From Capitulum mitella (lineage: Eukaryota; Arthropoda; Thecostraca; Pollicipedomorpha; Pollicipedidae), in contig CP099854.1 of assembly GCA_030062745.1 (NCBI GenBank), forward strand, positions 11,728,153-11,792,152: a stretch of 64,000 nucleotides of DNA. The letters run 5' to 3'. Position 1 is the stretch's first letter, and every line of letters starts with the position of its first letter. Both the position numbers and the translations under genes were made by a program. Of this stretch, positions 27,149 through 34,700 are shown piece by piece. The notes below the pieces were generated by a model that saw nothing but the letters and a program-made list of their open reading frames with translations, searched no databases and was not told where the DNA came from.

Positions 27149-27719
27149 CTACAGAATGCCCAGCAGCTGGGCCTCGCCGGTGCGCCGCCTCTCGGCCGCC
27201 AGGTTCACTTCCACCAGCGTGTCCAGACTGTTGGCGCTCGTGCCGCGCATCAGCCGCTGCGCCGCCAGCGACTTGAACGTCAGGTTGAGCGAGCTCAGGC
27301 TCGGGTAGGTGCGGAGTGAGGCCTCGCCGGGCGATCCGGGCCGCTCTGGCTCGCCCGGCGTCTCCTCCGGCGGCGGCGGCGGCTCGACCCGCTGGCTGCG
27401 CGGCACCTGCTTCGGCGCCACCTCGGCCGGCGCCGCCAGCTCGCCCAAGATGACGCGCAGCTGCGCAGGCCGGCGCGGCGGGCCACCGGCCGGCGGAGGC
27501 GGCGGCGGCTTCTCGTTGTTAATGGGCGGCCGGACAGAGCCCATCTGTCGGCCGGCGCGCTCGGCTCGGCTCTCTAGTTCGCGCGGCTCCGGCGGCGGCG
27601 GCGGAGCCGCAGGCGAGGTGTCCGTTTCGCTCCGTGGAGGCGACCGCCGGCCGCCGCCGAGCTCGCCGACGTTCTGGTACACAGGCTCGACCGGCCGGGA
27701 CGTCGTCCGTCCTCCCGCG

Positions 27720-27755
<36 letters not shown>

Positions 27756-28726
27756 CGCTCCGGCTCCGGCCGCCGGCGCAGCTCCCGGCCCGAATCGCCG
27801 CGCCGCCGGCTGCGCGCCGCGGTTTGGCCTGCCTTCTCGCCGCGGCTTCTGTGCGGTCTCACCGCGGCGGGAGCCTCCAGGCCGGGCCGGCCGCGCCCGC
27901 CGTCCCCAGCGGCCGCCGGCTCACAGCCGTTCACCGCCGCCCGGGCTCGCTCGCCGCCGCCAGCCGGCCTTTTCGGAGACCTGTGCTGCCGCCGCTTGCT
28001 CGGGGAGTCGGCGTGAAGCTTCACCTGCGGCCGGGACTCGGCCGCAGCGGAGAAGACGGTGAGTTTTGGCGACCGGTGGTCGCCCTTCATGTCCGGCGGA
28101 TGGCTGTTGGCGGTCTTCGGTCGTGTCACGCCGGCGTCCGGGCCTCGTCCGACCTCGCCCTTCCGCTCAAAACGCCGACTTGGCTCAGCGGCACCGACAA
28201 CCGACGTGCCACCTGTCGGTGACAGGCGCAACTCGAGTTTGGCGTTCCTCTCCAGAGATGACGCCGGCGACGGGCCGCTGCTGCGCTCCAGGCTGGAGCC
28301 GCTGCTGGTGCGGCCGCTGCTGTGGCGCGCACGCGCCTCCAGCCGCTCGCGCACGTGGCGCCGCGCAAACGTCTCGGCGCGGCCGGCGCCGTCGGTGGTG
28401 AGCTCAGCCGAGACGCCGCTCTGCGCCAGCCCCGAGTCCAGCGTCTCGCGGCCGCTACCGGCGCCGTCCGACAGCCGGCAGGCCGACTGCAGCGCCGCCT
28501 GGCGGCCGCTCGGGCTGCCGGACCGGTTCGCCGGCCGCGCTGGCTCCTGCTGTCGGCCGGCGGCGGCCGGCGGTGACTCGGCGAGCAATGCCCGCCGCGG
28601 CAGGCTCGACGATCGTAGCGCCGCTCTTTGAGGGGTTGTGGAAGGTGAGGTTTTTGTGGTTTCTGCCAGGTGGTCCAAGCTGCCGTTACCCGTTTTCCGG
28701 TGTTTGTGGCGGCGAGAACGCATCAT
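27149..28726 (-). CDS. STOX coding exon 8, long Pro/Arg-rich tail
   Basis: A 525-codon terminal exon (residues 331-855) after the strong acceptor TTTGTTTTCAG, ending in TAG. It opens MMRSRRHKHRKTG, a basic segment. The middle is low-complexity: a PEPEPE repeat at about residues 650-665, EPVYQNV at about 676 (resembling a phospho-Tyr-x-Asn motif), and proline runs at about 735 and 775 (EKPPPPPP, EPPPPPEE) of the kind bound by SH3/WW/EVH1 domains. The last 55 residues (YPSLSSLNLTFKSLAAQRL, SANSLDTLVEVN) are the most ordered and probably conserved. GC is very high, so long open frames appear on the opposite strand too; phase-correct joining to exon 7 and the serine/charge pattern support this strand. 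Confidence 0.85.
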
Positions 28727-31700
28727 CTGAAAACAAACATTTGGTAAAGCGCTAAGAAATGGACGGTAAGGTTCTAACGAATGGCCGGTAAAGCGCTAGT
28801 CACATCTCCGGCTAAGTGCTATCCGATATAAAACCGTAAAAGTAGCTACTTAAAATTTCCATTCTTAATGTAATATGCTGGCATTAATTCAGCCTTCTCT
28901 AATGTTCACTCAAGAAACGGGTCGACGGCAGCACTGGACAGTAAGCAGCATTTCCCGGCCCCGCAGCGTGCTACGTCTTCAGCACCAGTGCCTGCCCCTT
29001 GCATTACCTGTATCATGCTCCAGTCTCTTTTCCCAGCGAGCGTATACCTCAGACTAGCCCCTTCCCCAGTCCCATCAGACCAGCCCTGCCTCAGTCCCCT
29101 CAGATCCAGCCCTGCCTCATTCCCGTCAGACCGAACCCTGACCCAGTCCCCTCAGCCCCAGACCAGCACCAGTCCTCTCGGACCAGCTTCCAGCCCGTTC
29201 CCACCTTCGGCGAGCCGTCGCCTCGCTGGCTCCGTCTCGGCGACGTCTGCGTGCCGACCGAGTGTAGGTGGGTGACGTCACCGGACGTCCACTCCGGCGG
29301 CGGAAACTGAGCGCTGAACGTGGCCAGCTGACGACGCGGCGACGCCAGCCGCAGCAGTTTCGAGAACAGAGACGGCCGCTCCACTGCGCAGCAGAATATC
29401 AGATGTTAGGTGGAACCACGGCCGCTTCCGTCTATGCTGGCACACGAACTGCACGTTAAAAGGTCAATCCGTGAAAGGACAATTCGTACTCACATAGAAA
29501 AACACGAAAACGAGTTATTCCTTTATTTCGGCCATCAGCCTTCCTAACGAATAATTTTTGAAAACTTTTGTTTACCCATCCCTGAGGAAGCCCTAAGACC
29601 GAAATAAAGGATTAAGTTTTTTCGTGTTTTTACCTGATATAATTTGGTGAGGGTGTTCTTCAAGAAAACTTTTTCAAAAGAAAAAAGGCGCTTTTCTTAA
29701 AAAAAAACTCAGTGAGGAAGGTCCATGACCAAAAATAGGGTTAATTTCTTCTCGTGTTTTCTTTTTCCTTTTTTTACATTATGAGCTTAAGATTACTTCT
29801 ATTTTACCTTATTACAACAATCATCCTCATTTAAGCATTCAAGTACATCAAAGGTCAGTTCGTCATTACAGGTTTTGTGTCACGTGATTCAGATAAAACA
29901 TGGGTTCAGAAAGGCGATTCATGCCAACAAATCACGATCAAAATCAATGTCTGCGTCTGCCACAAACTACGAGATACTAGAACCGGAGCCGAACATAATG
30001 ACAGTGGGCAATGGCGGGATGGGGCAACGGAAGATGGAAGGGCCACCTACGCCGCCTCTTCACAACACCACACGCGTTTTTTTTTCGCCCCTCTGTGTAA
30101 AAAATCGAGTCAGTGCGAGCGCCATGAGTGACTACTACTCACGGACGCTGAACTCGGCGCTGGTCGGCGTTTCGTCACTGTAGTGGCGCCGTGACGTCAC
30201 TGGTCGCAGGGCCGTGCTGGGATAGCGCATCGAACTGGCCCGCCGAAAATGGTCCTGAAACGCACCGGGAATGATCGCAAAACAGGCCAAAAATAGTAAT
30301 AAAACACACCGGAAATGGTCCTAAAACACGCCGGGAAAAGGTCCTGAAACACGCCGAAATTGTAATAAAACACAAACTGGGAGTGGTGTTGAAACACGCC
30401 GGAAATGGCTTGAAATGCGGCGGAAATGGTCTTTAAACCTACCGGAAATGGTCCTGAGACATTTCATACATATTACTGAAGCGCACCGGAAATGGTGCTG
30501 AAACACGCCTGAAGTGGTACTGACGCACGCCAAAAATGGTCCCAAGATGTTGCGAAAACGGTCTTGAAATATACCAGACATAACGTTGAAATGTGGCGAA
30601 ATTTGTCGAAACATGACGGAGGTGATCTCAAAACACGATAGAATTCGTCCTGAAACGCGTCTGACATGCCAGAATGCCGTTTCTGTTTTTGCTCTTACCA
30701 CAGTCCGCCTTTGGTCTGTCCCTGTCTCGTTTGATACTCTAACTGTTCTGCGTGTGTTCAACCTCTATTTCGCGTCCAATGTCTTCATTTCTCCTTGCGT
30801 CTTTTTACGATTCTATGCATTCCCTTTTACTTCCGAAGTTTTTTCCATTTTTTGTATCCTGTCATTAATTTTATGACTGACAATAGTAGATGCACTTCAT
30901 GATCCACGACATACTCGTGCCAGTTCCCCGCCTCAGCAGTCGATCTGGTTGATTTAAACGAACTGACTTTGTTGCAGACCAGTATGAGGCCAGGGACAGA
31001 ACGGAACAGAACAGGCCATCTGCTAACTTGACTGTGCACACCGGAACAGGGGTTGTCGGAGTGAGCCAGCATGATGCGACGTCCCATACACACCGTTCGG
31101 CGAGGCACGTCCGTGGTCCGCTTCCATGTAGGTGTCGGCGTCGATAGTGTCCGCGTCCGTGTCCGTGACCATGGTCGAACCCTTGTCCGTGTCCGTATCA
31201 TTGTCCGTGTCCGTGTCAGTATCCGTTTCCGTTTCCGTTTCCGTGTCCGTGTCGGTATCAGTGTCCGTGTCCGTGCCCATGTCCTTGTCCGTGTCTGTCT
31301 TCACCTCTGCCTTCGCCCCAGCCTCTGTCTCAACCTCTGCCTCGGCCTCGGTCTCTGACTCTGTCTCTCTGCTGGTCCTCTGTTGCGTTTCCGGCCGTCC
31401 GCCGGCCGCCGCTCACCTCTCGCTGACTGGCCGACAGTTTCATAGAGTGGCGGCGGGCCAGCAGGGCCAGTCCGGCAGGCGGCGCTAGTGACGGACACGG
31501 CAGAGGGCGCGCGTGTATCACGGGGTCGGAGTCTGTCCCTGAAACACAGTAACCTAGCCGGTGGAGAGTCGAACAGAGGGCAGCCATATCCAGACCCGAG
31601 GTAGGAGCCGGCATTTAGCACACCCGAGCTAATTCCTGGATGAGAAGCGCTTTAAGCGGAGACAAATCATCCGTGGATCCATAAGATCATTTCTGTTCTG

Positions 31701-34700
31701 ACCATGGTAGAACTTTCAGACGCAAAGGATTCAATCACATTAGATAGGTGCTCATTCTCTAGTGGGATCCAGTTGTACGGCTGCCATTGTTTACAAAAGG
31801 AGATTATTGGCCGACTGCAGTTGGCTACAGTCGACTGAAAGAATCGGGAAAAAACACACGCGTGATGTTCTGAGCGAAATGCCACGGCATCAGCATCTCC
31901 CGCCACACACCACAAACACGCACCTCCCACCACACACCGCAAACACGCACCTCCCACCACACTCCACAAACACGCACCTCCCGCCACATACGCACCTCCC
32001 ACCACACACCGCAAACACGCACCTCCCATGATGATGTCGGCCAGGTCGGTCTGCACCATCCTGAAGACGCGGCGGCCGCGGCGGACGGCGTCCCTCTCCA
32101 GCTCGGCCGCCAGCTGCTGCTGGTACGTGCTCGGCGTCACGATCCGATAGCCGGCCTTCGTGTGGTAGATCTGACGACGCAGGCGGCACGGTCACAGCCC
32201 GGCGTCCCGGGTTCGAATCTCAGCAACGGCGACATGTTTTGGCATTTTGCTGGCTCCTAGCCTTGTGGCCTTCGAGCGGTTGTTTCGTGAGCGGGTGGCA
32301 ACGGTCATTATTTATCGAGACTTTCAACAGAAAATCATGTCTAACGACAACATGTCTCGGCACACCACGAGACATCGCTGATCGGTATCCAACGTTCGCT
32401 GATCAATGTCCAGCCTAGCCCTGACCAGCACGTACCTTCCTCTCCCTGACCAGTCGGCCGAGGGTGGAGAACACTACCCCCCGATCCGGTAGCTCCAGGT
32501 GAGGAAAGTGCCGACGCAGGTGGACGCACACGTCATCTAACGTCACCTGTGGCGTCATCAGAGACATCAGTTCGGTCCGGTCATGGAATTTCAACGGTTC
32601 AAGCGGTTTACTGGGAGGCTCACTGCGGGTCAGAGCTGCCTTGTGAGCACCACACAACCACGCTATTTGACTACACGTGCTTTGCGTGTATTACCCTGTA
32701 TGACCACCTGTACACTTTGCTGTGCGTAAACATTACCACTTGACAAATTGTTTTATGTATGCTCGACTCGAGACACGGAAAAGTGATAATGCATGGAATT
32801 GCCTCACGACATGTATAGATGAAAAACAGGTAAATATTTCCGTCTCACGATGGGGCCAACATGAAAACCATGCCGCCACCTGAATCATGACCGATGAAAA
32901 ACACATTTCCTCGCCAAGTCTAGACTTTTCCGACAAGGTGACCGTCTTAAGATCCCCCCCCCCCCATGCGCAAAGTATTTGCGAAAAGACTTGGTTGAAC
33001 ACAAAGCACAACACTTGTTCCGATGCTGCAAACCCATTCATTCTCCTTCATCTGCGTCATAAGACGACGTCGGCAATGGTCACGACTGACTGCAGCTAAC
33101 TCAACTACATATGAAGTGTTCCGCGTGAGCCTCTACCTCACCTTGGTGTCCGCCTGCTTTTCGTTGAGCGCCTGGATCACGAAGCAGATGGCCTCGGGCA
33201 GTGAAGTGAAGTGACCCGGTGTCACCGGGGTCACGTTGTAGCCGTGCGCCTCCCCTGGCGGTCAGACGGACTCGGTCGGACCGCCCGGTACAGACAGGGT
33301 CCCGCCCAACACAACACGCCACACAACACAGGGCACCGCCAGTGGCGGATCCACAGCACGCCACAGGGTCGTGACCTCACCCTTGGGACTTGAAGACCTC
33401 CATTACGCTGCACAGCAATATGCAAAATATGAACGGAAAAACGTTGTCCTTCAGTGCTAGTTCCGGTTACTTCAGAATTGGTTCTGATATTCAATCCACT
33501 ACTTTTGATTATGATGTGGAATCCGGCGGGGAACGCTGTCCTTCCCGGTGAATCGGCGCTCCCTGCGCGCGCAGGCGTTGCTTCCAGGAAATTCCGGAGC
33601 ACCGCTTCTTCCAAAAGACGGCATAGATGTAATAAAACACAAAAAGTGTTTCACGCATCAACAAACACCATGTACATGACCAGGTAATGGTTCATGGCTT
33701 CGGGGATGGTACGAGACTTCCGTTTACCTGTTAATCGGGACGGAATTCTCAGAAAACCGAATAGATTAGAGCTCACGTGATCTCGAAGCCGTGTCCCACT
33801 TCTGGTGCCGGCACCACGTACATGCGACATGTATCTGATTGCCCACAGCTGGGCCTAGCCTAGGCCTCATTTTCCTGGATCCGCCCCTGTCTTACACGAC
33901 AGATCACCACAGCGCTTGTGTCACGTGAGCTGTGAGTTCACGCCACAGATGGCCGGATTGATGAGGCCATGTGGCGTTTCACGTGCCTTCACTTCGTAAC
34001 GGACGGAGCCAGTTGCACTGCTGGGACAGCCGAGCTTGTCCACTACAATTCTGGGGTCAGCAGGCAGCCGGTGACAAAGCAGGGCAGTGTTCGGGGCAGG
34101 ACAGCCACGCGCCATGTGGCAAACGAGACCGTAGATAACATGCTCGGCAGCGAACACTGTACTCGGCGATTTTCCAGATCTGATCCCTTTTGCAAACGAC
34201 GTACATAGAACAGTGGAATGAGTTACCGCCAGTTTCCATTATCATCGCCGAGGGTTTCCGGGTAAGGCCTGGCAAAAACGTAAGCTGCGTCACTTGAGGT
34301 ATTTGGCAATTAAAAAAAACAAACATCCCACATTTCACCTTCACTTCAGCAACGTCAGATGAAATCGAACGAGAACAGGGATCTTGCGGTGGAAGCTGTG
34401 CTGTTCAGAACGCCAGTGATACATGAATGCACCATGAGGAGAAAAGTGAGACGACGACCCTGTCGAACTGCTCTGCCATTATCCTCAGCCTTGACCGCTG
34501 CCGGTGCAGTAAACCGTTTACGAGCCTCCGCGGACGACCGCTGCCGTTAATTACGGCCAACGCTCGGCGATGGCGATGGCGTGACGTCCCTCCTAATCAT
34601 CCCCCGGTCATTCCTACCGCGAATACGCCAGACGTCTCGATAAACCCACACCTCAGCGACCTGTGAAAACAGTCCGAGAGCGGCTCAGCAATTGTCGCCG

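Follow-up and report, generated by a model that had tools for sequence, protein, structure and literature searches.

A minisatellite repeats the splice donor of a storkhead exon in five phase-compatible copies

The storkhead locus and the exon that meets the array

The DNA analysed here, a stretch of 64 kb that we refer to as the window, carries on its minus strand part of a gene which, by its Stork_head winged helix (Pfam PF10264), belongs to the storkhead-box group (STOX/knockout/HAM-1). The preceding exon, whose donor reads AAG|GTACGT with the GT at 32435, lies within a longer open reading frame (32421-32690) that matches PF10264 with 30.5 bits. When this open reading frame is joined to the exon that ends in the array, the score rises to 52.5 bits (cut-off 27) and the match covers positions 28-79 of the 79 in the profile, reaching its last position. 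This rise argues that the array exon is real and supports both the identity of the gene and its reading frame, and is in line with the preliminary description, which had proposed a STOX gene with a winged helix. Profile positions 1-27 were not seen in the joined open reading frame and exon, and a motif for the N-terminal region of the domain, run as a regular expression over the minus strand, gave no match. The organism's own genome yielded one match to PF10264 among four candidates scored, and hence no second storkhead gene for comparison; none of the 14 control genomes yielded a match.

The exons, the donors and a candidate small exon discussed further below are collected in Table 1. Pfam gave no match to the open reading frame around the downstream exon (29106-29405), and the FSAQFPPPEW of this exon is a stretch that we take to resemble vertebrate STOX. 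A 26-bp minisatellite in the same gene (29047-29187 of the window) begins about 17 nt past the donor of the downstream exon (GT 29204). Still further along the minus strand lies an open frame of 548 residues (27152-28795), in which a GGCTCC hexamer repeat (27720-27770) reads EPEPEP; it has no Pfam match and may be the storkhead gene's large C-terminal exon.

Table 1. Features of the storkhead locus, in positions of the window
Feature	Position	Strand	Remarks
Preceding exon, VTLDDVCVHL...LVRERK	32436..32546	minus	contributes to the storkhead winged helix; acceptor end placed tentatively
Exon ending in the array, IYHTKAGYRIVTPSTY...ADIIMG plus one base	32023..32170	minus	148 nt, phase-1 end, then GTGCGT
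Tandem array	31902..32027	minus	five units of 27, 18, 27, 27 and 27 bp, GGGAG|GTGCGT at the start of each
Donor 1 (GT)	32021..32022	minus	presumed main donor, +0 residues
Donor 2 (GT)	31994..31995	minus	+9 residues
Donor 3 (GT)	31976..31977	minus	+15 residues
Donor 4 (GT)	31949..31950	minus	+24 residues
Donor 5 (GT)	31922..31923	minus	+33 residues
Candidate small exon, ...RRHYSDETPTSAEFSV, then GTGAGT	30143-30320	minus	leaves in phase 1 into 29383
Downstream exon, ERPSLFSKLLRLASPRRQLATFSAQFPPPEW...	29205..29383	minus	phase-1 acceptor at 29383, donor GT at 29204

Five identical donors in a local minisatellite

The 11-mer GGGAGGTGCGT, which spans the end of the exon and its donor (GGGAG|GTGCGT), occurs in five exact copies on the minus strand, with the GT at 32022, 31995, 31977, 31950 and 31923 and hence at spacings of 27, 18, 27 and 27 bp, and is absent from the rest of the 64-kb window on both strands. 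Tandem Repeats Finder (TRF) places the array at 31893-32028, with a period of 27 and 5.4 copies. The preliminary description had made the donor of this exon a member of a tandem repeat and had placed four further copies at exactly these spacings; the five exact 11-mers and the TRF array bear out the first point, and the positions of the second agree to the base. The four 27-bp units are identical to one another at 25-27 of 27 bases, the remaining unit, of 18 bp, falls short of these by nine bases, and the fifth unit is followed, from 31901 onwards, by a sixth, decayed copy (GGGAGATGC) from which the GT is gone.

The repetition of the donor exceeds chance. Across 2000 dinucleotide shuffles of the array the 11-mer appeared 0.005 times on average and never more than once, against the five copies seen; the 9-mer GAGGTGCGT, likewise present five times, never exceeded one copy when the 870 nt of surrounding sequence were shuffled 1000 times. 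With five strong donors in 136 nt, the array is the densest such cluster of the window, in which no other stretch of this length holds more than two on either strand. The comparison of the units does not demonstrate purifying selection on the donor inside the repeat: the donor 11-mer is invariant across the four 27-bp units, and the chance of this is 0.19, as only three columns vary at all.

The array stands in repeat-rich surroundings. The window contains 28 merged arrays with a period of at least 10, and tandem arrays make up 5.5% of its length. A background sample of 200 kb (500 N), made up of 10-kb stretches from twenty fixed positions spread over the 16 contigs, held 76 arrays of this kind, and 1 of them carries three or more strong donors on the same strand. 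This one array (L023, 3559-3773, minus strand) has a period of 54 bp and four donor-like copies of CAG|GTGGGA; translation of 550 nt showed one of the three minus frames open over almost the whole length and another over about two thirds, and the array may represent a coding repeat or a second donor array. Repetition of a donor-like motif within a minisatellite is in itself no rarity; the present array is set apart by repeating the very donor of its exon.

Searches of the whole genome (477 Mb, 16 contigs) point to a local origin. A pattern of two donor 11-mers lying 7-25 bases apart, for which exact matches only were counted by a tool whose DNA search skips very common words, was met four times, always in this array, and the reversed pattern that served as a control was met nowhere. 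Because exact donor pairs were found solely here, we consider it probable that the array arose by local tandem duplication of the junction segment. Descent from a dispersed element is unlikely, given that the exact two-donor pattern is confined to this array genome-wide. A DNA search returned 30 other places, all at C16:17.42 Mb; one of them, locus L002, is a different and far larger minisatellite with a 40-bp period and a similar base make-up.

The 27 bases upstream of the array agree with its first unit at 4 of 27 positions, so that the array starts at the edge of the exon. As in a donor-containing minisatellite, it runs from this edge, as placed from the sequence, and includes the exon's own donor, and its further units hold four exact, equally scoring copies that look usable as donors. 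We also considered whether the units might be new introns, since intron gain by tandem duplication of AGGT has been reported (PMC4974935, excerpt) and the duplication described here also contains AG|GT. Unlike such introns, the units are at most 27 nt long, G/T-rich and without a pyrimidine tract before the AG, and therefore do not resemble new introns. In addition, the seven AG sites in 32030-31891 score only -6.8 to -11.1 as acceptors, as compared with 2.1 for 29383 and 8.1 for 31834, and the duplicated segment lacks a pyrimidine tract with an acceptor, as judged from sequence only with vertebrate-type base frequencies.

Reading frame and coding character of the repeated segment

All five donors are in phase 1 and compatible with the acceptor at 29383, from which phase 1 runs on for 93 codons; the joins are open and add 0, 9, 15, 24 or 33 residues. 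The inserts of 9, 15, 24 and 33 residues that were foreseen in the preliminary description are thus in frame when joined to 29383. The same description had stressed that the spacings are all multiples of three and that the frame is open through them. Both statements are true but carry little information. None of the three minus-strand frames meets a stop in the array, and a single 27-bp unit accounts for three of the four spacings, so that the agreement with a multiple of three amounts to about two independent facts, with a chance of about 1 in 9 by our own reckoning. For these reasons phase compatibility is weak evidence for function.

The donors themselves are alike in strength. Splice sites were scored with vertebrate-type base frequencies rather than a matrix from this genome, and the scores serve for ranking only. 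On this scale the five array donors are the top-scoring donors from the start of the exon to 31700 and have an equal score (4.12); they are identical through position +6, and the computed pairing with U1 is -8.3 kcal/mol in 5 of 5. Folding of 181 nt gave no signal of an RNA structure that would mask the donors (z-score +0.82, with 159 of 200 shuffles folding as well or better). Weaker donor-like sites are repeated along with them, in phase 2 at 32009, 31937 and 31910 and in phase 0 at 32002, 31957 and 31930, the latter with a score of 1.29 as compared with 4.12 for the array donors; joined to 29383, the sites of either phase would shift the frame.

The composition of the 33-residue insert argues against its routine inclusion. 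G or C stands at the third position in 18 of its 33 codons, as opposed to 124 of 145 codons in the three exons compared (Fisher p 0.0002), and cysteine and tryptophan account for 6 of its 33 residues as opposed to 2 of 145 (p 0.0006), although a young insert would show the same contrast even if it were included. Moreover, the differences between the 27-bp units alter residues in the frame of the exon (R/W, C/S, V/A). From the contrast in composition together with these residue-changing differences, we see no sign of long-term coding constraint, which fits either an intronic array with little or no use in splicing or a very young array.

These observations bear directly on the idea that the fifth, intron-proximal donor is the main one and that the repeat is constitutively coding, adding 33 residues. 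Such an arrangement would be allowed by the open frame and its join into 29383, and the introduction of PMC5585400 states that SRSF1 promotes the use of an intron-proximal donor and hnRNP A1 that of an intron-distal one. Because regulatory proteins of this kind steer the choice between competing donors, dominance of the first donor is not assured. Nevertheless, both the composition of the insert and the unit differences, which give no sign of constraint on the peptide, speak against a main fifth donor, and we regard this arrangement as very unlikely.

Precedents and possible use of the donors

Two human genes offer precedents. The repeat of IFI6 (6-16) has a unit of 12 bp, which makes for steps of four residues. 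Minisatellite donors in this gene were reportedly described by Turri et al. in 1995. Splicing of IFI6 can use either of two downstream repeat units as an alternative donor, so that three mRNA species arise, of which the 130-residue form predominates (PMC4526556, excerpt). In ABCA7, a VNTR in intron 18 has a unit of 25 bp and its first GT is the donor of exon 18, while the GT of the next unit is a cryptic donor that leads to an isoform in which a single unit is retained; the paper gives 14 and 2% for the frameshifting isoforms, and we read the 2% as the unit-keeping one (PMC5954066, excerpt). The same excerpt gives 23.7 units in the human reference, strong variation in length, and more skipping of the next exon with longer arrays (PMC5954066). 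The array described here is like that of ABCA7 in that the repeat directly flanks an exon whose donor is the first GT of the array, and like that of IFI6 in that downstream repeat units carry donors. In contrast to ABCA7, where keeping one unit of 25 bp causes a frameshift, the units of 27 and 18 bp keep the frame and are five in number. IFI6 is a different gene with a different repeat unit and is backed by RNA evidence; the present array is described from the sequence of one assembly. Donor-containing minisatellites are therefore already known, and the present case adds to them a storkhead gene, in a probable invertebrate, with five donors in frame. A literature search for storkhead with crustacean or splice gave no paper naming storkhead among the matches listed, which we do not put forward as a claim of absence from print.

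Taken with these precedents, the features of the array lead us to lean, if only slightly, towards a locally born minisatellite in which the first donor dominates and later copies give minor in-frame isoforms. A 27-bp stretch straddling the junction of exon and intron, with five exonic and 22 intronic bases, would have been duplicated locally, and because this stretch straddles the junction, each complete unit would carry an identical donor in an identical phase. The spliceosome would then mainly use the first donor, where the coding sequence of the exon ends, and the later copies would be used at a low rate, adding up to 33 residues behind the winged helix in minor isoforms. Such a pattern of a dominant first donor with minor use of later ones is to be expected because IFI6 and ABCA7 both use downstream units.

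The main rival to minor in-frame isoforms is that the first donor alone is used and that the downstream copies are silent intronic repeats, suppressed by exon definition and regulatory proteins. It gains from an insert composition unlike that of the three exons compared, and from a genome in which minisatellites are common and where one array with a repeated donor-like motif turned up in the 200-kb background sample. It has more difficulty with downstream donors that match the first through +6 and in computed U1 pairing, and with the occurrence of the ABCA7 isoform that keeps one unit, at about 2% by our reading of the excerpt (PMC5954066). We think silence of the later copies rather unlikely, yet a possibility to be reckoned with.

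The proposal in the preliminary description that the array provides a ready-made series of alternative exon ends holds in part: five phase-compatible donors do fit the acceptor at 29383, whereas the composition of the insert speaks against routine inclusion. The array may vary in length between individuals. In its strongest form the proposal would make of the array an individually variable splice ruler, in which a regulated choice of donor sets the addition at 0, 9, 15, 24 or 33 residues rich in Gly, Cys and Val and other alleles offer other sets of lengths; this we consider quite improbable.

If the later donors are used, the locus would allow spliceosomal choice among five identical donors, set in near-identical local surroundings, to be studied as a clean natural experiment, and would offer an in-frame counterpart, in a probable invertebrate, of the disease-linked repeat of ABCA7. 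A local duplication would in that case have handed a regulatory gene graded protein variants in a single step. If they are not used, the donor is an incidental part of what is otherwise an ordinary intronic minisatellite.

Minor in-frame isoforms would not follow if our gene model is incomplete or wrong, with further exons between the array and 29383 or a splice to 31834, so that the frame would not be kept into the true partner exon. The site at 31834 is the best-scoring acceptor-like site in 31890-29251 (8.1, as compared with 2.1 for 29383) and lies 89 nt past donor 5; entered in phase 1, it gives 13 codons and then a stop, which would cut the protein short behind the winged helix. A further form of this alternative involves the candidate small exon of Table 1, which exits in phase 1 into 29383, yet whose better acceptors, at 30254 (3.5) and 30320 (4.2), are open solely from a phase-0 donor and would then be fed by 32002, 31957 or 31930. 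Of the four entries tested, 30199 alone is open from phase 1, with a score of -5.3. If real, the small exon would in part argue against the in-frame reading. Against a different gene model stand the fit of the acceptor at 29383 to phase 1 with its 93 codons onward, the low score of the phase-0 donors (1.29 against 4.12) and that of the small exon's own donor, which reaches only 0.34, and we judge a failure of this kind to be improbable.

The same intron contains a 22-bp minisatellite (30241-30540 of the window, minus strand) that repeats an acceptor-like TTTCAG|GACC; among the 147 AG sites of 31890-29251, the copy at 30320 takes third place and the one at 30254 fifth. One intron thus holds both a donor-like and an acceptor-like array.
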